The position numbers were made by a program, and so were the translations under genes. The notes beneath the pieces are model-generated. The model was given only the letters and a program-made list of their open reading frames with translations, was not told the DNA's origin and searched no databases. DNA of 64,000 bases from a virus, in the IMG/VR virus record IMGVR_UViG_3300037451_000035, positions 1 through 64,000 of that record; one strand, given 5' to 3'. Of this stretch, positions 2,523 to 64,000 are shown piece by piece (position 1 is the stretch's first letter; every line of letters begins with the position of its first letter).

Positions 2523-2591
2523 CCGGGGACAGCCTATGGCGACCCTTGCGGACTCACGCTAAGGGTGCCGGGAGACAGGGAATTGCTCGCC

Positions 2592-3971
2592 ATGATCCGG
2601 CCCGAAAGCTTCCTCGACGGGCGCGTGACGCTTTGGGGCGGCGATTGTCTTAAACGGCTTCCAAAATTAGCGGAAAATTCGATTGATTCTGGCGTCTGTG
2701 ATCCGCCCTATCACCTGACCAGCATTGTCAAGCGCTTCGGCGCCAACAATGCCGCGCCAGCAAAGCGCGGGAAGACCGGGGCCTATGCTCGAGCGTCGGC
2801 CGGGTTCATGGGCAAGCAATGGGACGGCGGCGACATTGCGTTCCGACCCGAGATATGGCGAGCCGTCCTTCGCGTCTTCAAGCCCGGCGCGCATCTGATC
2901 GCCTTCGGCGGCACGAGAACCTATCACCGGATGGCGTGCGCAATTGAGGATGCCGGATTTGAGATTCGGGACTGCATCCAGTGGCTTTACGGTTCCGGCT
3001 TTCCAAAATCTCACGATGTCGGCAAAGGTATTGATCGCGCGGCCGGCGCGGAGCGCTCCCTTGTCGCCCTAGGCAAGCCCGTCAAGCGCATCATCCCAGG
3101 CGCTGACCAGAACAAGGCCGGCTGGGAAAAGACGAACGGGCGCGTCTATGTGCCCGGCCGGCGCCCGCCTGTAACCGAGGAAGCGCAACGCTGGGATGGC
3201 TGGGGCACGGCATTGAAGCCAGCTTGCGAATTGATCGTGCTGGCCCGCAAGCCGCTCGACGGCACGGTCGCCGCCAATGTTCTGAAATGGGGAACCGGCG
3301 CGCTGAATATCAACGGCTGTCGCATAATGGTGGATGACGAAGCCTACGCCAAGAATTGCAGCGGCGACCGCGGCCATGCCGACAATCGCTCGCGCAACAT
3401 GGATTTTGCGATGGGCTGCGGCACGGCTTCTGATCTTGGCCGCTGGCCCGCCAACGTCATCACCGATGGAAGCAAGGAAGTCGTCGGCTTGTTTCCCGAT
3501 AACCTGACCAGCGGCACTGGCGCCGTGAAGCGCGAGACTGGCGAGGGCTACCAAGCCAACGCCTACGGCAAGGAGAGCCGTTCAGTCGGTACGCCCAACG
3601 TCGAATATGGCGATACAGGATCAGCCGCCAGATTTTTTTATACGAGCAAGGCTGATTCCGATGATCGGCTTGGCTCGAAGCATCCGACGGTCAAGCCGCT
3701 CGACCTGATGCAATATCTTGTGCGGCTGGTCACGCCGCCGCGTGGCCTGGTGCTGGACCCGTTCGCCGGCACTGGCACAACCGGGGAAGCTGCATGGCGC
3801 GAAGGAATGCGCGCGGTGCTGATCGAGCGCGAGGCCGAATATCAAGACGATATCCGCCGGCGCATGAAGCTGGCGCTTGCCGGTCCTGACGAGCGCGCCC
3901 GCGAATCGATAAAGGCAACGCTGAAAGACACACCGGCCGATCCTGGCCCGCTCTTCGGTGGCTCGTCATGA
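2592..3971 (+). CDS. Site-specific DNA methyltransferase (N6-adenine/N4-cytosine type)
   Basis: About 459 residues. ATG 2592 (MIRPESFLDG) is preferred over GTG 2565 because AGGGA sits about 10 bases upstream. The catalytic DPPY motif (VCDPPYHL) lies near residue 38, and the SAM-binding LDPFAGTGTTGEA lies near the C-terminus after KHPTVKPLDLMQYLV. This order (catalytic before SAM motif) is the beta class common in phage methylases. A large variable middle probably reads the target. With no restriction partner nearby it is likely an orphan enzyme protecting phage DNA or tuning packaging or transcription. Confidence 0.9.
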   Translation: MIRPESFLDGRVTLWGGDCLKRLPKLAENSIDSGVCDPPYHLTSIVKRFGANNAAPAKRGKTGAYARASAGFMGKQWDGGDIAFRPEIWRAVLRVFKPGAHLIAFGGTRTYHRMACAIEDAGFEIRDCIQWLYGSGFPKSHDVGKGIDRAAGAERSLVALGKPVKRIIPGADQNKAGWEKTNGRVYVPGRRPPVTEEAQRWDGWGTALKPACELIVLARKPLDGTVAANVLKWGTGALNINGCRIMVDDEAYAKNCSGDRGHADNRSRNMDFAMGCGTASDLGRWPANVITDGSKEVVGLFPDNLTSGTGAVKRETGEGYQANAYGKESRSVGTPNVEYGDTGSAARFFYTSKADSDDRLGSKHPTVKPLDLMQYLVRLVTPPRGLVLDPFAGTGTTGEAAWREGMRAVLIEREAEYQDDIRRRMKLALAGPDERARESIKATLKDTPADPGPLFGGSS

Positions 3972-6245: not shown

Positions 6246-7292
6246 ATGCCCCCCGCTCACGACGTACACCAATGGGAGAACTTGGGATTTCCCAAGTCTC
6301 TCCCCTCGTTCCAGAAGCTTTTCCCGGATGACGCGGCGTGCGCCCGCTACCTGGAAGGCGCCAAGTGGCCCAAGGGCTTCGAGTGCCCGAACTGCCACAC
6401 CAAAGGCGAGCCGTTCCGGTTTGAAGCCCGGCCGCACGTGCTGCGCTGCAAATCGTGCCGGAGCGACGTTTCCTTGAAGGCTGGCGCCGTCATGGAAGGC
6501 ACGCATACCCCGCTCACGACGTGGTTTTGGGGCGCCTATCTGATTTCTACATCGACTCCGGGCATTTCGGGCGTTCAGTTTCAACGTCAGCTTGGCCTCA
6601 AAAGGTATGAGACCGCCTATCAAATCCTGCACAAGCTCCGGGCGGCCATGTTCCGCCCCGGCCGCGACCGGATCGGCGGCAACCTTGGCCGTGGCGATCA
6701 TGTCGAGGTTGACGAAACGTACATCGGCGGGAAGGTCCGGGGCGAAGGCAGCGGCCCGAAACCCGATCATACCGTCCTGGTTTCGGCGGCAGTTGAGGTC
6801 CGCACCCGACCGGCCAAGAAAGGCGACAAGCCGCAACGCCGTGGCGGCCGGTACGCGGGCCGCTTGCGGCTGGCAATCGTTGACGGGCGCAGCGAAAAGG
6901 ACCTGTGCGGCTTTGTAGAGGCCACTGTCGAGCCGGGCGCCATGGTCATTACGGACGCCTACCGGAGCTACAATTCGCTGAGCAAGCGCGGCTACCAGCA
7001 TTTGCCGGTGATCGAAGGCGGCAAGCCGGAAGTCGCCGAAGAGTTCCTGCCTATCGTGCATCTGGTTTTCTCAAATCTGAAATCGTGGTTACAGGGCACT
7101 CACCACGGCCGCGTCGAGCCTAAGCACTTGCAAGCCTATTTGAACGAGTTTGCCTTTCGCTTTAACCGGCGCTTCTACCCGTTCAACGCCTTCCGCTCGT
7201 TGCTCGGCATCGGCGCTAATGGCGAGGCCCCGACTTACGCCGACCTTTACAGCGGTGACTGGCAACACCCTACGGTTAGCGATCATGGGTAA
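6246..7292 (+). CDS. IS1595-family (ISXO2-like) transposase
   Basis: 348 residues. An N-terminal zinc ribbon (CPNCHTKGEPF ... LRCKSC, residues about 45-75) is followed by the DDE-type RNase H core: VEVDETYIGGK holds the first Asp, VITDAYRSY the second, and the LVFSNLKSWLQGTHHGRV region matches the family's HSxxxYVRGxVHTNxIES-like segment, though with SNLK instead of the usual Asn/Glu residues. The end LNEFAFRFNRR is family-typical. It differs clearly from the transposase at 21462. The element's right end is only partly preserved and its left end is not visible, so it may be immobile. Confidence 0.9.
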   Translation: MPPAHDVHQWENLGFPKSLPSFQKLFPDDAACARYLEGAKWPKGFECPNCHTKGEPFRFEARPHVLRCKSCRSDVSLKAGAVMEGTHTPLTTWFWGAYLISTSTPGISGVQFQRQLGLKRYETAYQILHKLRAAMFRPGRDRIGGNLGRGDHVEVDETYIGGKVRGEGSGPKPDHTVLVSAAVEVRTRPAKKGDKPQRRGGRYAGRLRLAIVDGRSEKDLCGFVEATVEPGAMVITDAYRSYNSLSKRGYQHLPVIEGGKPEVAEEFLPIVHLVFSNLKSWLQGTHHGRVEPKHLQAYLNEFAFRFNRRFYPFNAFRSLLGIGANGEAPTYADLYSGDWQHPTVSDHG

Positions 7293-8571: not shown

Positions 8572-9855
8572 TGCCGAAGGCTCCGAAGAAAAAGCGCCAC
8601 CTTGGCCCGCGCAAGCCCGGCCGCACGTTCAATAACGACATCATGCGCGGGGAGAGCGCTGTGCCGGCCGACGGCCTCGGGCCCGGCCAGCGGCGGCGGA
8701 GCAATTCGGCAGACGCGGCGCCAGTTGCGGCGTTGACCTATGCGGGCAAGCAAAGGCGCCGACCCGATCTCGATCCGGTCACTCAAAAGATTCTGGGCGG
8801 CAAGCGCGGCATCGCGGTGCCCGGCGGGATGCGGGGCGGCAATTCCGGCAAGACGGGCCTACACCCGCGGCCGCAAAGCCAATGCCGAGCCGGCGGGCGG
8901 CGGAGGAGGCAAGTGGCGAGAAATGCAAGACAAGCTGAATAAAAGCCGCGCGCAGACCGCCTCGCTGGGTAATGGCCTCACGCTCGGAACGACGATTCAT
9001 CCCTACGTCGGCACCGACCCGCAAACCGACGCGAGCGCTACCGGCACGTCGATTTTCGATCCTGTGCTTGCTGAATTGGTCTATCGCTGGTTTTGCCCGC
9101 CCGGTGGCCTGGTGCTCGACCCGTTCGCCGGCGGCTCGGTGCGCGGCATTGTCGCGTCCCGGCTCGGCCGGCAATATCTCGGGATTGATCTCCGCCCCGA
9201 GCAAGTCGCGGCGAACGAAATGCAGGCCAAGTTGATCTGCAAAGCGCCGCTGCCGCAATGGATCTGCGGCGACGCGCTCGACGTCGTCGAGTTCATGGGC
9301 AAGCGCAAGGCGCATCTGATCTTCTCGTGCCCGCCGTATGCCGATCTTGAAGTCTATTCCGACGACGAGCGCGATCTATCGACGATGGACCATGCCGAGT
9401 TTCTGAAGGCATACTCGGCAATTATTGGCGATTGCGCCAAGTGTCTCGCCGACGATTCGTTCGCCTGCTTTGTGATCGGCGAGGCGCGCGGCCCCGATGG
9501 TAATTATTACGGGCTGGTGGCGCGCACCGTCGAGGCTTTCGAGGCGGCTGGATTGCCGCTCTACAACAACGCGATTCTCGTCACCGTCGCGGGCTCGCTG
9601 CCGATCCGGACCGCCAAGCAATTCACCGTCAGCCGCAAGCTGGGAACCACACACCAGCATTGCCTTGTCTTCCTGAAGGGCGACGCCGTCGAGGCGACGA
9701 AAGCCATCGGCGCGGTTGATTTCGGGGAAATCCTCGAAGGCGCTCCGCCGGCCTCGCCCGAGCAGGATTCCGGCACAGCACCAGCGCCGAAGCGATCGAC
9801 ACCGCCAGCGCCGCCCGGCTCCGCCAATCTGGCGGATTATGGGGACGTGCTGTGA
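8571..9855 (+). CDS. DNA methyltransferase with an apparent frameshift
   Basis: The gene opens at ATG 8571 (MPKAPKKKRHLGPRKPGRTF) and reads in one frame to GGNSGKT. Coding then continues in another frame as AYTRGRKANAEPAGGGGGKW and runs to 9855. Removing one G from GGG at 8855-8857 restores a single frame of about 427 codons. The methylase core has LDPFAGGSVRGIVAS (SAM motif), FSCPPYADLE (catalytic CPPY) and GTTHQHCLVFLKG near the end. The change may be mutation, programmed shift or base-calling error. A downstream ATG at 8740 could still give a 371-residue core protein. Confidence 0.75.
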
Positions 9856-16175: not shown

Positions 16176-16492
16176 AGCCGCTGACCGATTTGCCGCTGTT
16201 TCGATACCCCGCGCAGCCCGGCTTCAAGGCTGGCGGTACGTCGCGCGACGCCGCGCGCGCCGTGGCGGCTGGAGCGCCGAATGTCCGCGAAAAGGTTTTC
16301 GACGCCATCGCCGCGTCGGAGCCGCGAGGATTGACCGCCGACGAGGCGGCGAGCGCGGTGGGCCGCAAGCCAGCCTATATCAGACCAAGAATAAGTGAAT
16401 TGCGAGCTGCTGGCCGCATAATGCCGAGCGGAGAACTTCGAAAAAACGAAAGCAATTTGTCTGCCAAAGTGTGGAAAATCTCACATGAATAA
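16172..16492 (+). CDS. Small winged-helix-like DNA-binding protein
   Basis: 106 residues. NVREKVFDAIAASEPRGLTA, DEAASAVGRKPAYIRPRISE and LRAAGRIMPSGELR form the helix-turn-helix and wing of a MarR-like or phage 'DUF3310-neighbour' winged helix. It probably acts as a transcription factor or replication modulator. Its end overlaps the HNH gene by 8 bases. Confidence 0.65.
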   Translation: MKPLTDLPLFRYPAQPGFKAGGTSRDAARAVAAGAPNVREKVFDAIAASEPRGLTADEAASAVGRKPAYIRPRISELRAAGRIMPSGELRKNESNLSAKVWKISHE

Positions 16493-17054
16493 AATCAAGC
16501 CGACAGACAAAGTGCCGGATCATGCCGAATGGCGTCCGTTTCCCTTAAACCCGGTCTATTTGGTCAGCGAATTTGGGCACATGACCAAAATCAACGGTCG
16601 CGGTTTGTTGCGTCCATATCCCATGAAAAACAAACCCTATTTCACCTATACGCCAACGCTTCAGACTGGCGGCACGCGGACTTTTGGATGCCATGTAATT
16701 GTTGCCCTCACCTTTATAGGGCGGCGTCCATCGAAAAGGCATGAAGTGGCCCACAATGATGGCGACGGCAGCTACTGTCACTTTTCCAATCTTCGATGGG
16801 CGACTAAGAAAAGCAATTCTGCAGATACGATTCGACATGGGCGAATAGCTACCGGGCTTCGAAACGGACAGCACACCCACCCAGAAAAACGACCGCGCGG
16901 AGAACGCGCTGGCCGAGCCGTTCTGACGGATAATCTAGTCCGCTATATCCGCAAGACCGATAAGTCGATTCGGGCTCTTTCGCGAGAATTGGGCGTTTCT
17001 CGTTTTGCGATCAAATGCGCCAAACGGCGAATATCGTGGACGCACATTCAATGA
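16485..17054 (+). CDS. HNH homing endonuclease (NUMOD4-HNH-HTH type)
   Basis: 189 residues. A NUMOD4-like start (EWRPFPLNPVYLVSEFGHMT) is followed by the HNH core (CHVIVALTFIG, EVAHNDGDGSYCHFSNLRWA; His/Asn ligands), then NSADTIRHGR, and a C-terminal helix-turn-helix (KSIRALSRELGVSRFAIKCA). The sequence is less GC-rich than its neighbours, which fits recent arrival. It sits between coupled early genes, presumably as a free-standing mobile endonuclease targeting cognate phage DNA. Confidence 0.88.
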   Translation: MNKIKPTDKVPDHAEWRPFPLNPVYLVSEFGHMTKINGRGLLRPYPMKNKPYFTYTPTLQTGGTRTFGCHVIVALTFIGRRPSKRHEVAHNDGDGSYCHFSNLRWATKKSNSADTIRHGRIATGLRNGQHTHPEKRPRGERAGRAVLTDNLVRYIRKTDKSIRALSRELGVSRFAIKCAKRRISWTHIQ

Positions 17055-21461: not shown

Positions 21462-22391
21462 ATGTCCAAGTCCACCATTTCGACGTTTGAACTGTTCGCC
21501 CTGATCCCCGACGCGGAGACGGCGCGGACCTATTTGGAGGCCCGCCTGTGGCCGAACGGGGCAACCTGCCCGGTCTGCGGCCTTGCCGAGCGGGTGACGG
21601 TTCGGAAGGGCAAGCCCGGCTTCTACCACTGCCAGCAATGCGCAGAGGACTTTACGGTGCGCACCGGCACGATCTTCGAGCGCAGCCACGTTCCGCTGCA
21701 CAAGTGGGTTTACGCGATGTATCTGCTCGTGACGGCCCGGAAGGGCATATCCAGCCTTCAACTGGCGAAAGAGATCGGCGTCACCCAAAAGTCGGCTTGG
21801 TTCATGTTGCAGCGGCTCCGCGAAGCCTGCGGCAAAGACCTGACCATGCTGCAAGGGCTGGTCGAGATCGACGAAACTTACGTCGGCGGGATTGAGGCCA
21901 ACAAGCACGAAAAGGACAAACTGCGCATGGGGCGCGGCCCCGTCGGCAAGCAGCCCGTTTTGGGCTTGCGGGAAAAGGGCAAAGGTGGTCGCGTCAAGGC
22001 GTTCAAGATCGACAGCACCGACGCCGGAACGATCACCGACGTTATTGTGCAAAATGTCGCGGTCGGTTCGACGCTGCATACCGACGAAGCCCAAGCCTAC
22101 GGCGAGATCGGCGGCCTGTTCTTCGATCACGCGACCATCAACCACTCCGCCGGCGAGTACGTCCGCGACGGCATTTCGACCAATTCGATTGAGAGCGTTT
22201 TCGCCGTTCTCAAGCGCGGGCTGATCGGGGTCTATCATCACGCCAGCCCGAAGCACATCGGCCGGTATGTCGATGAATTTGCGTTCCGGTTGAACGAAGG
22301 CAACGTCGCCCGGCACACCCTGGAACGGCTCGATAGCTTCGTCAGCCGCGTTGCCGGAAAGCGCCTGACCTACAAAGCACTTACGGCTTAG
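21462..22391 (+). CDS. IS1595-family transposase
   Basis: 309 residues. The zinc ribbon CPVCGLAERV ... FYHCQQCAEDF lies at residues about 36-65, followed by TVRTGTIFERSHVPLHKW typical of the family. The DDE core shows LVEIDETYVGGIEANKH (Asp), LHTDEAQAYGEIG (Asp) and the HSAGEYVRDGISTNSIESVF segment with the Asn/Glu end. LNEGNVARHTLERL closes the catalytic domain. All key residues are present, so it may be active. Its C-terminus is copied in the 110-bp derivative at 5902-6011. Confidence 0.93.
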   Translation: MSKSTISTFELFALIPDAETARTYLEARLWPNGATCPVCGLAERVTVRKGKPGFYHCQQCAEDFTVRTGTIFERSHVPLHKWVYAMYLLVTARKGISSLQLAKEIGVTQKSAWFMLQRLREACGKDLTMLQGLVEIDETYVGGIEANKHEKDKLRMGRGPVGKQPVLGLREKGKGGRVKAFKIDSTDAGTITDVIVQNVAVGSTLHTDEAQAYGEIGGLFFDHATINHSAGEYVRDGISTNSIESVFAVLKRGLIGVYHHASPKHIGRYVDEFAFRLNEGNVARHTLERLDSFVSRVAGKRLTYKALTA

Positions 22392-45510: not shown

Positions 45511-45941
45511 GAGGCCACAGTAAAAAAAACGAGGAAGCTTTCAACCTCCGCCGCGGTCTCCGGGTCGATCTTGCCTTGCTGAGTCGCGACGTCGTACGGG
45601 AGCGTTTGCCAGCCGCCGGCGTCGCCCAGCACCACCACCGACGTCAGCCGCCGGATCTCCGCCAGCAAGCCGCGCTCGACGCCCGGCCGCGTGATCTCCT
45701 TGGTGGTCGGGTCGCGCCGGTCCTCCCATTGCCCGAGCTCGGTCGCTACGTCCTTGAGCGCGAGCGCGGCAATCCGCGGCGCGGCATTGCCGGCAACCCC
45801 GGACATGCGCACCATGGTGCGCGATATCGGCTCCCAATACCGCTCGAAGATTTCCCGGCTGATCGGCACCGAATGCACCCAGAGGGTAGTGCCGTCGTCG
45901 TCAATCGGGAGCGCGATGTTTAATCTTTTGTCTATACGCAT
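45348..45941 (-). CDS. Tail assembly chaperone, G part
   Basis: 197 residues from ATG 45941. MRIDKRLNIALPIDDDGTTL, VHSVPISREIFERYWEPISR, RIAALALKDVATELGQWEDR, GLLAEIRRLTSVVVLGDAGG and FFTVASWMNQKSDLPVLYE, ending STEFASSLPTSIETANS, follow a family found between tail tube and tape measure genes. It keeps the tape measure soluble. The slippery T8 run lies at codons about 138-140. Its start overlaps the GIY-YIG gene by 10 bases. Confidence 0.8.
   Translation of the reverse strand: MRIDKRLNIALPIDDDGTTLWVHSVPISREIFERYWEPISRTMVRMSGVAGNAAPRIAALALKDVATELGQWEDRRDPTTKEITRPGVERGLLAEIRRLTSVVVLGDAGGWQTLPYDVATQQGKIDPETAAEVESFLVFFTVASWMNQKSDLPVLYETIGLWRARAVSLTSTEFASSLPTSIETANSGPKVESSVPS
45522..45529 (-). 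other. -1 ribosomal frameshift site (U UUU UUU)
   Basis: On the - strand the zero frame reads GTT TTT TTT ACT, so the heptamer T TTT TTT is in phase for tandem slippage by -1. The shifted frame stays open for about 90 codons to 45250 and encodes a conserved-looking chaperone part. Confidence 0.7.
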
Positions 45942-46717
45942 GATAAAAGCCCCGCTGAGGCGCCGTCGCCCCATTGCGCAAATGCTGACGGAAAAACTGG
46001 ACATTCCCGTTTCCATCTCTTTATAGCATGGCCGACGCTTATATTGCGGCGGTGATCTGCTGAAAGCTGTCTTCCAGTAAGAGCGATGCTGATACTTTGA
46101 CAATGAGCATCCGATAATTTCACGCCTCTCCGACGCGTGCTTATGGCTTGGCAAATTTCTTGAGTGCGTTTTCTGCCTTTATTTTTCAGCGTAGTTTTTT
46201 CAACCGCCAATGGATCGCGTTTTTTGTTGAGCTTGGCGAGGCGCATCACTTGTTTGGTTTCATCGCTATGCTTCCGCCCCAAGAAAGGAGGATTTAACTT
46301 TACTCTCGCACTGCTGGCCGCCCGAAATTCTAGAGAATGAACGGCCCCTCGATGGCCGATGCCATATTTGTTTCCTTTGCTTCTAGCAATCAACGCACGG
46401 ATAGTTTTGGCCGACACTTTTCTCCCAGACACTCCTTCGCCGCCATCAGTCTGATTGACAAGTGGGCCATTCTTTCCTCGGCCGATGGCAGCGATCAGCG
46501 CGATCTCGATTTCAAATGCCTCTGGCTCTGTGAGATTAGACCGAATTATCACTATAGGAATTTCGCCGCCAGCCTTGGCGATGATTCGCTGAAGGTGTGA
46601 GTTGTGGCTTTTTCGCAGATGAACACGCCAACGATCACGTTGGCCCTTGCCGACGTAGCACGGCGAGCCGTCCCAGGGCCGGAAGGCGACGTAAATGTAG
46701 TATTTCCGTTTCAGCAT
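45932..46717 (-). CDS. GIY-YIG homing endonuclease with NUMOD3 repeats
   Basis: 261 residues behind AAACAGGGAATCGCTATC. KYYIYVAFRPWDGSPCYVGK is the GIY-YIG core (YIYVA ... YVGKG), with RWRVHLRKSHN and EAFEIEIALIAAIGR (catalytic Glu) following, then NQTDGGEGVSGRKVSAKT. The C-terminal half has NUMOD3-type DNA-binding repeats (NPPFLGRKHSDETKQ; RRRGVKLSDAHCQSI). Free-standing between tail tube and chaperone genes, lower GC than neighbours. Related to the gene at 53045. Confidence 0.88.
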   Translation of the reverse strand: MLKRKYYIYVAFRPWDGSPCYVGKGQRDRWRVHLRKSHNSHLQRIIAKAGGEIPIVIIRSNLTEPEAFEIEIALIAAIGRGKNGPLVNQTDGGEGVSGRKVSAKTIRALIARSKGNKYGIGHRGAVHSLEFRAASSARVKLNPPFLGRKHSDETKQVMRLAKLNKKRDPLAVEKTTLKNKGRKRTQEICQAISTRRRGVKLSDAHCQSISIALTGRQLSADHRRNISVGHAIKRWKRECPVFPSAFAQWGDGASAGLLSCV

Positions 46718-53044: not shown

Positions 53045-53698
53045 TTACAGCAGATTTTGCTGGTGTACTAGAGGCGCTGCCGTCGACGCTTTTCTCTTGA
53101 TCCAGCTTTCTCGAATCAAAGCACAGTGGGCTTCGTATTGATCGGGATGCCGTTTGCGCTCTTCCCAAATCGCCTTGTTGGCCTCGCTTATTGCTTTTCG
53201 ATGGGTCTCAGATTTTGAACTTTTCGCATGGCGCAGCAGGATTTTAACGGTCTTAGGGTGTGCCGGTTTTCCTCTTTTCGCGCGGCTGATCGCCAGCCGT
53301 CGTTCGGGTGACTGCGGTCCCGTTTTCCGCCCTTTCCTTTTCTCTCCGCCTTTTCCAATGCGCCGCCGAGCATCAGCCGACACAGGTCGCCCAACTGTGC
53401 CTTCCCCGCCGTCCGTCATATTCACCAGCGGGCCCCTATACCCTCGACCGATAGCCGCGATTAGCGCCACTTCCACGGCACAAGCTTCAGCGTTCGTCAG
53501 ATTTTCCTGCAATTTTATTTTGGGCAATCTTTTCGGCGCTGCATCTGTAATTATTTTTGCAAGACGCTTGTTCCGATGCTTGGCCCCGTACGCCTCGGCT
53601 TCATGGATGAGCCAGCGTCGGCCGGCGCCCTTGCCGATATAGCAAGGCGAGCCGTCGAGCCGGAAAAGAACATAGACGTAAAATCGCCGTTCGTTCAT
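53045..53698 (-). CDS. GIY-YIG homing endonuclease
   Basis: 217 residues. FYVYVLFRLDGSPCYIGKGA (GIY-YIG), RWLIHEAEAYGAKHRNKRLA, EACAVEVALIAAIGRGYRGP (catalytic Glu), VNMTDGGEGTVGRPVSADAR, then a basic C-terminal DNA-binding part (RRLAISRAKRGKPAHPKTVK). Clearly related to the gene at 45932 in its nuclease domain. Free-standing between a neck gene and the methyltransferase. Lower GC than neighbours. Confidence 0.88.
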   Translation of the reverse strand: MNERRFYVYVLFRLDGSPCYIGKGAGRRWLIHEAEAYGAKHRNKRLAKIITDAAPKRLPKIKLQENLTNAEACAVEVALIAAIGRGYRGPLVNMTDGGEGTVGRPVSADARRRIGKGGEKRKGRKTGPQSPERRLAISRAKRGKPAHPKTVKILLRHAKSSKSETHRKAISEANKAIWEERKRHPDQYEAHCALIRESWIKRKASTAAPLVHQQNLL

Positions 53699-63083: not shown

Positions 63084-64000
63084 TTAAGCCTCTTCCAATT
63101 GCGCCCGCAACCGCGCCAGCCGCATCGCCATTGCCTGATAGCCGACGGCCGGGCGGGGAATTTCCTCGAGCGCGTCGGCGCGCGCGGCCTCGAAGCGCTC
63201 GCAATGGCCGGCGCGCTGAATAGGCCCAATCACCAGCGTGCACGCGTGGCCGCCCGGCGCATTGGCGTCGGTGCGCACAAACATCGAACACTTCTGGCAT
63301 TGGGTGGAGAGATCGCCCCAGAACTCGACGTATTCGACTTCGCCTTTGGACATGGTGGCGGCATCCTTTCGCGCGCTGTCCGCCCGGCCTTTGCGCGCGG
63401 CGCGGACCTCTTCCATTCCTTGCACTGAGGCCAGCGCCTTCTTGCCTTTCGCCGTCAGCATGTCCTCGGGCAAGTCTCTCAAATTGTATTTGTAGATGTA
63501 ATAGCAGTTGTGGGATAGGATGCCGTCAGCGACGTACCACCCTTCCTCAGTTTCGAGATTATAGACATGCCCCGCAAAAAAATTCCGCTGAATGTCTACG
63601 ACCTTGCCGAATCGTACCGTAGCGGCGTCGATGCCATGGTGCTTGCAGAGCAATTCCAAATTTCCGACGCTACTATTCGTAGGCGTCTTCGAGAGGCGGG
63701 AGTCGCAATCCGCAACAAATCCGAAGCCAAGATCAATCTCGGCGACACGGTTGATCTTCCCGATGGCGAGATCATCGCGGCTTATCTCAGCGGAACTAGT
63801 CCTGATGTTCTCGCTGCCGATTACGGCACTTGCGCAGACACCATTCGACGTCGCGTAGAGCGAGCCGGAGTGACATTGCGCGACGGTTCGGCAGCTCAAC
63901 GACTTCGCATTCTCAACGAGACCACAGATATCAAAGTTGCGAGAGCAAAACGCATGAGCGCTCTCCATCGCGGCAAGCCAAAGTCGGACGCTATGCTTGA
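63084..64000 (-). CDS. Phage head-region protein interrupted by an intein (C-terminal part only)
   Basis: The leftward frame enters from beyond the right edge. Its intein C-terminal blocks are clear: VVDIQRNFFAGHVYNLETEE, GWYVADGILSHN followed by Cys (+1 extein residue; splice point between codons 63507-63509 and 63504-63506). The downstream extein (CYYIYKYNLRDLPEDMLTAK, then CQKCSMFVRTDAN, GHCERFEAARADALEE) has a zinc-type Cys set and is a conserved phage protein near portal/head genes. The frame rightward of about 63640 is open but poor, and is antisense to a better gene. Confidence 0.7.
   Translation of the reverse strand, partial: KHSVRLWLAAMESAHAFCSRNFDICGLVENAKSLSCRTVAQCHSGSLYATSNGVCASAVIGSENIRTSSAEISRDDLAIGKINRVAEIDLGFGFVADCDSRLSKTPTNSSVGNLELLCKHHGIDAATVRFGKVVDIQRNFFAGHVYNLETEEGWYVADGILSHNCYYIYKYNLRDLPEDMLTAKGKKALASVQGMEEVRAARKGRADSARKDAATMSKGEVEYVEFWGDLSTQCQKCSMFVRTDANAPGGHACTLVIGPIQRAGHCERFEAARADALEEIPRPAVGYQAMAMRLARLRAQLEEA
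63567..64000 (+). CDS. Helix-turn-helix homing-type protein inside the intein, antisense (partial)
   Basis: Open from ATG 63567 to the window end, at least 144 codons. Two helix-turn-helix repeats are visible: YRSGVDAMVLAEQFQISDAT followed by IRRRLREAGVAIRN, and YLSGTSPDVLAADYGTCADT followed by IRRRVERAGVTLRDG. A basic segment follows (KVARAKRMSALHRGKPKSD). Such repeats are DNA-binding parts of homing endonucleases and resolvases; the nuclease would lie beyond the edge. The first 16-25 codons are antisense to the intein's C-terminal blocks. Confidence 0.6.
   Translation, partial: MPRKKIPLNVYDLAESYRSGVDAMVLAEQFQISDATIRRRLREAGVAIRNKSEAKINLGDTVDLPDGEIIAAYLSGTSPDVLAADYGTCADTIRRRVERAGVTLRDGSAAQRLRILNETTDIKVARAKRMSALHRGKPKSDAML

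Follow-up and report, generated by a model that had tools for sequence, protein, structure and literature searches.

An antisense gene for a putative homing endonuclease lies wholly within the coding DNA of a predicted phage intein

Splicing elements and the placement of their endonuclease genes

Canonical large inteins of the PI-PfuI (1dq3) type consist of a Hint domain interrupted by endonuclease-coding DNA, are mobile by homing and are inserted in conserved codons of important genes, with the endonuclease present as an in-frame domain. The endonuclease I-Bth0305I (3r3p), which combines DNA-binding units with a Vsr-like nuclease, resides in a group I intron. In the fractured genes reportedly described by Dassa et al. 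in 2009, the intein is split and a free endonuclease gene lies between the halves. Nuclear group I introns carry antisense homing endonuclease genes, for example I-DsqI of Didymium, which occupies a peripheral RNA segment of a self-splicing, mobile rDNA intron (PMC9548176). In the phage ShiLan, an HNH endonuclease is encoded out of frame, on the same strand, in a non-splicing insert of a methylase gene, where it is hidden in the open host frame and is actively spreading (PMC11855218). Finally, an intein without recognisable endonuclease and of doubtful mobility has been reported in the F protein of a Mu-like prophage of Methylococcus capsulatus (PMC517821). The literature searched contains no description of an endonuclease gene antisense to an intein, a statement that does not extend to a possibly overlapping preprint by Gosselin et al. 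(2025) on actinobacteriophage inteins of ‘non-canonical architecture’ (10.1101/2025.01.02.630785, cited in PMC11855218).

The locus analysed here has features of each of these systems. It shares with inteins of the PI-PfuI type the interrupted Hint domain, the mobility and the insertion in conserved codons of an important gene, but the endonuclease is predicted to be a separate protein of the opposite strand, and the sense insert is its largely unstructured shadow. I-Bth0305I provides the best-matching catalytic fold and the same association of DNA-binding units with a Vsr-like nuclease, the difference being that the present gene lies antisense inside an intein. As in fractured genes, a separate, predicted endonuclease gene of the Vsr/EDxHD type (EDxHD names the catalytic residues expected of an I-Bth0305I/Vsr-like nuclease) is located within intein-coding DNA, but here the minus frame is unbroken through the whole endonuclease gene. 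The opposite-strand position within a self-splicing mobile element is common to I-DsqI, whereas in the present case both strands code for protein over the same bases. The ShiLan insert likewise hides a spreading endonuclease in an open host frame, but on the same strand, of HNH type and without splicing domain, while here the gene is on the opposite strand, Vsr-like and accompanied by a full intein; opposite strand and complete splicing domain exclude an insert of the ShiLan type. With the Methylococcus capsulatus element it shares residence in a Mu-F head protein. We consider it highly probable that the locus is a mobile intein that carries the gene of its own homing endonuclease in antisense orientation and entirely inside its borders, with splicing, cleavage and the timing of expression being inferred.

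An intein in a head gene and the gene opposite it

The window, that is the whole stretch of 64,000 nucleotides analysed, covers bases 1-64000 of a virus record of 74,496 bases, and bases 61001-74496 were read to complete the feature cut by its edge (Table 1). On the minus strand, a single uninterrupted ORF of 705 amino acids runs from record position 65201 to 63084, contains the intein and adjoins portal and terminase genes. It encodes a head-morphogenesis-like (MuF-like) protein according to PHROGs (phrog_15127, 3e-40; phrog_324, 2e-15). The junctions between exteins and intein read FCR/CVPGSTKIPF...TPNHPIL...GHVYNLETEEGWYVADGILSHN/CYYIYKYN (slashes mark the junctions). The full intein has 322 residues (record 63507-64472), from Cys1 in block A (record 64472) through block B (TPNHP) and block F (GHVYNL) to the terminal HN; its C-terminal end, GHVYNLETEEGWYVADGILSHN, is encoded by minus-strand positions 63507-63572 and followed by the +1 Cys at 63504-63506.

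Identification of this intein relies on profiles, conservation and structure. Pfam Intein_splicing matches it with an E-value of 5e-10, and the NCBIfam models intein_Cterm and intein_Nterm match it too. Class 1 termini are present: N322 is followed by Cys, and C1 and N322 are invariant in 35 divergent inteins, as are T39 and H42 of the block B TxxH motif. When both ends are taken together, Foldseek returns a Hint fold with matches to many inteins, for example 4e2u and 2in9. In the AlphaFold model of the sense translation the splicing blocks are mostly above pLDDT 90 and residues 169-281 fall below 50. No sense-strand endonuclease was found in the intein with Pfam, NCBIfam or PHROGs; the lack of a Pfam sense domain and the low pLDDT of the sense middle exclude a canonical endonuclease-bearing intein. 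A split intein or fractured gene is excluded by the continuity of the 705-residue ORF and by a sense frame that, in 173 of 179 distinct phage homologues, spans both splicing blocks without a break (the other six show the N block, and four of them are cut by the contig end). The element is a complete class 1 intein by its blocks and fold, from which splicing activity is inferred.

On the plus strand, the antisense gene has all of its 297 codons inside the intein frame, which is open throughout, and each faces an intein codon in exact register. AlphaFold predicts the protein with a mean pLDDT of 89.4 as two three-helix units followed by an alpha-beta nuclease, whose top PDB fold match in Foldseek is the catalytic domain of I-Bth0305I (3r3p, probability 1.00, TM 0.70 to target). 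The E-value of this match, 9.5e-3, is modest on its own, and sequence similarity to I-Bth0305I is below detection in a single-sequence search. When 66 family members were scanned singly, the resolvase HTH_7 profile matched 41 (best 2e-13) and that of the MTES_1575 restriction-endonuclease family 35 (best 1.8e-9), the nuclease matches being to MTES_1575/DUF559; the family profile, compared with the PDB, matches 2lvs (HTH) and 3hrl (endonuclease-like). Nuclease residues E159, Y182, N183, D185 and E195 are invariant. The His of the EDxHD motif cannot be recognised in the window protein; a His following the acids is present in one subgroup only, which has GGNWH. Judged by the predicted structure together with these profiles, the plus ORF is a genuine gene for two HTH units and a Vsr/I-Bth0305I-like nuclease, and DNA cleavage by its product is inferred.

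The initial annotation of this DNA, made from the window alone, had recognised the intein C-terminal end on the minus strand and, from 63567, a plus frame with two HTH repeats. Both were right, the latter being supported by the ATG, the HTH profiles and helix triplets spanning residues 10-43 and 66-99. Its proposal of a homing-type gene inserted in reverse is upheld by the HTH-HTH-nuclease architecture, the I-Bth0305I fold and the family of at least 179 phage sequences, with cleavage still an inference. Its estimate of an overlap of about 25 codons was far too low, since all 297 plus codons are inside the intein frame. Extension past 64000, which it had recommended, yields the N-terminal intein block (the block A Cys and TPNHP) and the full plus gene, and profile searches of both frames, likewise recommended, find HTH and nuclease on the plus strand and Intein_splicing without sense endonuclease on the minus strand. 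It had stated that a continuous minus-strand intein with a recognisable endonuclease domain, and no conservation of the plus frame, would refute it; the minus-strand intein is indeed continuous, but no sense endonuclease is recognisable in it and conservation of the plus frame is strong.

Table 1. Features of the intein locus; positions are those of the window unless given as record positions.
Feature	Position	Strand	Basis or remark
C-extein of head-morphogenesis-like (MuF-like) protein	63084..63506	-	starts CYYIYKYNL, runs to stop codon; ORF and PHROGs
N-extein of head-morphogenesis-like protein	record 64473-65201	-	outside window
Intein, C-terminal part	63507..64000	-	Pfam Intein_splicing, NCBIfam intein_Cterm/Nterm, AlphaFold, Hint/intein fold matches
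Putative antisense homing-endonuclease gene, HTH-HTH-nuclease	63567..64000 in window; full ORF record 63567-64460 including stop, 297 aa	+	ORF, homologues, structure, codon tests
Shine-Dalgarno-like GAGA	63555..63558	+	8 nt before start; antisense of block F Asn-Leu codons (AAT CTC)
Start codon ATG of endonuclease gene	63567..63569	+	reverse complement of block F His codon (CAT)
First helix-turn-helix unit, residues 8-56	63588..63734	+	helices 10-18, 23-29, 34-43 (model); HTH profiles
Second helix-turn-helix unit, residues 57-110	63735..63896	+	helices 66-74, 79-86, 90-99 (model); HTH profiles
Helical linker of endonuclease	63897..64000	+	model
Vsr-like nuclease domain, residues about 156-264	record 64032-64358, outside window	+	model, fold match

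Two-strand coding and its distribution among phages

In this exact register TTA, CTA and TCA are the only plus codons that make a minus-strand stop. Codon usage in the genes nearby predicts about 410 of them for the plus frames of 83 loci, and none occurs (log10 P -203). In the sense frame the same codons represent 13.1% of Leu and Ser codons in the exteins and 0.08% within the overlap. In-register antisense stops are absent from all 179 distinct phage homologues, and over the 46,643 codons compared, each of the other four frames has between 1,142 and 2,994 stops.

Substitutions tell which strand is constrained. At 75-90% identity, the ratio of third- to first-position differences in plus codons is 2.1-2.3 from the second HTH unit through the linker to the middle of the nuclease, compared with 0.06 in block F and 0.59 in block B. 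Among eleven Guernseyvirinae alleles, changes in the core that are silent on the plus strand and non-silent on the minus strand number 94 versus 38 expected, and the reverse class 21 versus 38; changes silent on the minus strand only number 10 versus 2.6 expected in the C-terminal splice blocks (F/G) and 23 versus 11.7 in the N-blocks. These position-specific and silent-change counts indicate that constraint on the splicing ends comes from the minus strand, and constraint on the core from the plus strand. As the window has few close relatives, most of the data for this test come from other phages; comparison of the window with L018 and L019 agrees in direction, weakly. From alignments alone, the strand preference of substitutions is seen to switch at the boundaries of the splicing blocks, with selection acting on both frames, in line with the mutual constraint that the initial annotation had inferred for the overlap.

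The start of the gene lies within block F. The start codon is exactly opposite the block F His in 66 of 81 homologues (56 ATG, 10 GTG). Homologue starts are typically preceded by GGAGGT (GGAGG and GAGGT are common), which derives from the antisense of Asn-Leu, and a Shine-Dalgarno core of 4 nt is present in 58 of 78 distinct start regions; in block F, Leu is encoded by CTC in 46 of 68 cases, compared with 14.4 expected, and His by CAT 54 times and by CAC 10 times. The signal of the window, GAGATTATAGACATG, is weaker than those of the homologues, and a sigma-70 promoter scan detected no sigma-70-type promoter-like site near its endonuclease gene. On sequence evidence, the conserved splicing motif H-V-Y-N-L, read in reverse, is what supplies the start codon and the putative Shine-Dalgarno element.

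When 50,697 phage records were searched by tblastn with the plus protein, 124 of them matched, with E-values down to 8e-22. The regions examined among these matches sit opposite head-morphogenesis or MuF genes, and the antisense gene is annotated in none of the phage records examined. IMG/VR scans with the family alignment gave 280 related contigs, to which subfamily scans added more, and a genome scan gave three loci, of which one lies in the genome of Aggregatibacter, host of an Aaphi23-type prophage. The intein frame ends early in two loci, L181 and L255; in L255 (about 232-909) block F reappears in another frame, and the frameshift breaks the endonuclease frame too. In-frame stops in the plus matches L047, L073 and L082 are merely natural gene ends. 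Free-standing relatives of the antisense gene are absent among the phage loci, and the three bacterial matches L133, L134 and L136, which have antisense stops, show no resemblance to the full gene. L134 belongs to a restriction-type protein, where it is a stretch similar to DUF559; L133 and L136, from a Gammaproteobacteria genome (G049), match the HTH part only and are proteins of repeated HTH units. At least 179 distinct phage sequences share the predicted two-strand arrangement.

Mobility can be judged in the Guernseyvirinae, mostly Salmonella phages, in which the head gene is intein-less in most records. The exact empty site, HPN/C, is found in Shemara, St161 and SenTO17, whose exteins are 80-92% identical to those of the intein-bearing PhiSTP2 and W5_chr3. 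The latter two have inteins 99.6% identical within flanking exteins 85-86% identical; similarly, provirus L095 and phage pse-D34 share an intein at 98% identity with N-exteins at 67%. Near-identical inteins in diverged flanks, together with empty sites, show mobility. The empty alleles and the pattern of transfer also agree with site-specific cutting of alleles without the element. The antisense nuclease is very probably what spreads the insert, cleavage and its role in spread being inferred. The nearest intein-less relative of the window, Shewanella phage vB_Sb_QDWS, aligns straight across the junction at 49%. Its nearest relatives, L018 and L019, have the intein at Y/CRCYY or F/CRCYY, two codons upstream of the FCR/CYY of the window. 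Insertion hosts are MuF-like proteins (two sites), a dCMP-deaminase-like protein (two sites; L008 and L078) and a protease-like protein (L024).

Several side observations concern individual loci and the rest of the record. In Salmonella phage L223 (L127) the intein is mosaic, part of it resembling the allele of Pantoea phage AH01 (94-97%) and the rest the Jerseyvirus allele. In L008 (616-1968) and L078, intein and antisense gene lie in dCMP-deaminase-like genes at two different zinc-site motifs, and L008 (Virus Rctr197k) is labelled ‘head morphogenesis’, apparently via intein similarity. The record of the window also encodes two LEM-3-like GIY-YIG proteins (one with a NUMOD3 motif) and two HNH_3 endonucleases, at window positions 45935-46717 (-), 53048-53698 (-) and 16485-17051 (+) and record positions 71358-72005 (+), which are likely free-standing homing endonucleases. 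Two IS1595/ISXO2-type transposases (6246-7289 and 21462-22388, both +) and two N6/N4 DNA methylase genes (2565-3968 and 8740-9852, both +) are present in the window.

Rival readings and significance

Could the plus frame be a mere shadow of an intein coded on the sense strand, with an unknown domain there and a codon bias that keeps the in-register antisense frame open? In-register antisense frames do stay open most easily, and conservation is mirrored, the sense-frame motif FHGD (L002, about 3140-3155, minus strand) being the exact reverse complement of the nuclease VAVE. This reading nevertheless deserves almost no credence, as core substitutions accumulate at plus third positions, the avoidance of three codons far exceeds what neighbouring genes' usage would produce, and a plus frame with pLDDT 89 and nuclease and HTH profile matches faces an unfolded sense middle.

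A real antisense gene might instead encode a DNA-binding regulator or serve phage-phage interference, the intein spreading by ordinary recombination. Cleavage data are lacking, a regulatory role is conceivable for the HTH units and phage nucleases can act in exclusion of relatives. We judge it improbable in view of a known homing-endonuclease fold with invariant catalytic acids, of a gene that is always within an intein, and of empty sites and near-identity that concerns the inteins and not their flanks. The invariance of C1, of the block B Thr and His and of the terminal Asn in 35 divergent inteins, the sense-strand selection in blocks A/B and F/G and the confident Hint fold predicted at both ends make it very improbable that the antisense gene alone matters, with an intein that no longer splices and a head protein that keeps the insert, even though splicing data are lacking and the in-frame methylase insert of ShiLan has no splicing domain (PMC11855218).

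The reading retained is the mobile intein with its endonuclease on the opposite strand. By computation, both frames are coding and under strand-specific selection, the domains and folds are recognised, and empty sites and horizontal spread are documented. Reading of the minus strand would give the head protein with its intein, whose ends would form the splicing (Hint) domain and whose middle, the reverse-complement translation of the endonuclease gene, would be a largely unstructured linker removed upon splicing. Reading of the plus strand, with translation initiated within block F, would give a separate protein in which the two HTH units may recognise the target and the I-Bth0305I/Vsr-like nuclease may cut intein-less head genes, so that repair would copy in the intein with its hidden gene. 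By avoiding only TTA, CTA and TCA, the endonuclease gene keeps the intein open without amino-acid cost. Given the shared register, a frameshift in the endonuclease would also destroy the head protein, which may be why no premature stop occurs in any phage homologue of the set.

We lean, with some reserve, towards regarding these phage inteins as an undescribed and widespread class, characterised by an endonuclease that is always antisense, in register and started within a splicing motif. Its loss by frameshift would then destroy the head protein as well, thereby locking the selfish gene in place. Such breakage of the host head gene is the suggested reason for the persistence of the nuclease. 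Degenerate and immobile are terms that have been applied to inteins seemingly without endonuclease; in the present case the enzyme that seemed to be missing is predicted on the opposite strand, and the Mu-F intein of Methylococcus capsulatus (PMC517821) merits a second look. ‘Conserved’ intein motifs such as FHGD may likewise mirror a hidden antisense gene. Among natural examples of two-strand coding over the full length of a gene, the locus is one of the cleaner ones, and its hundreds of homologues allow evolution under overlap constraint to be followed. The family also adds new members to the predicted site-specific nucleases and to the inteins. It suggests, moreover, that a splicing motif can serve as start codon and ribosome-binding site.
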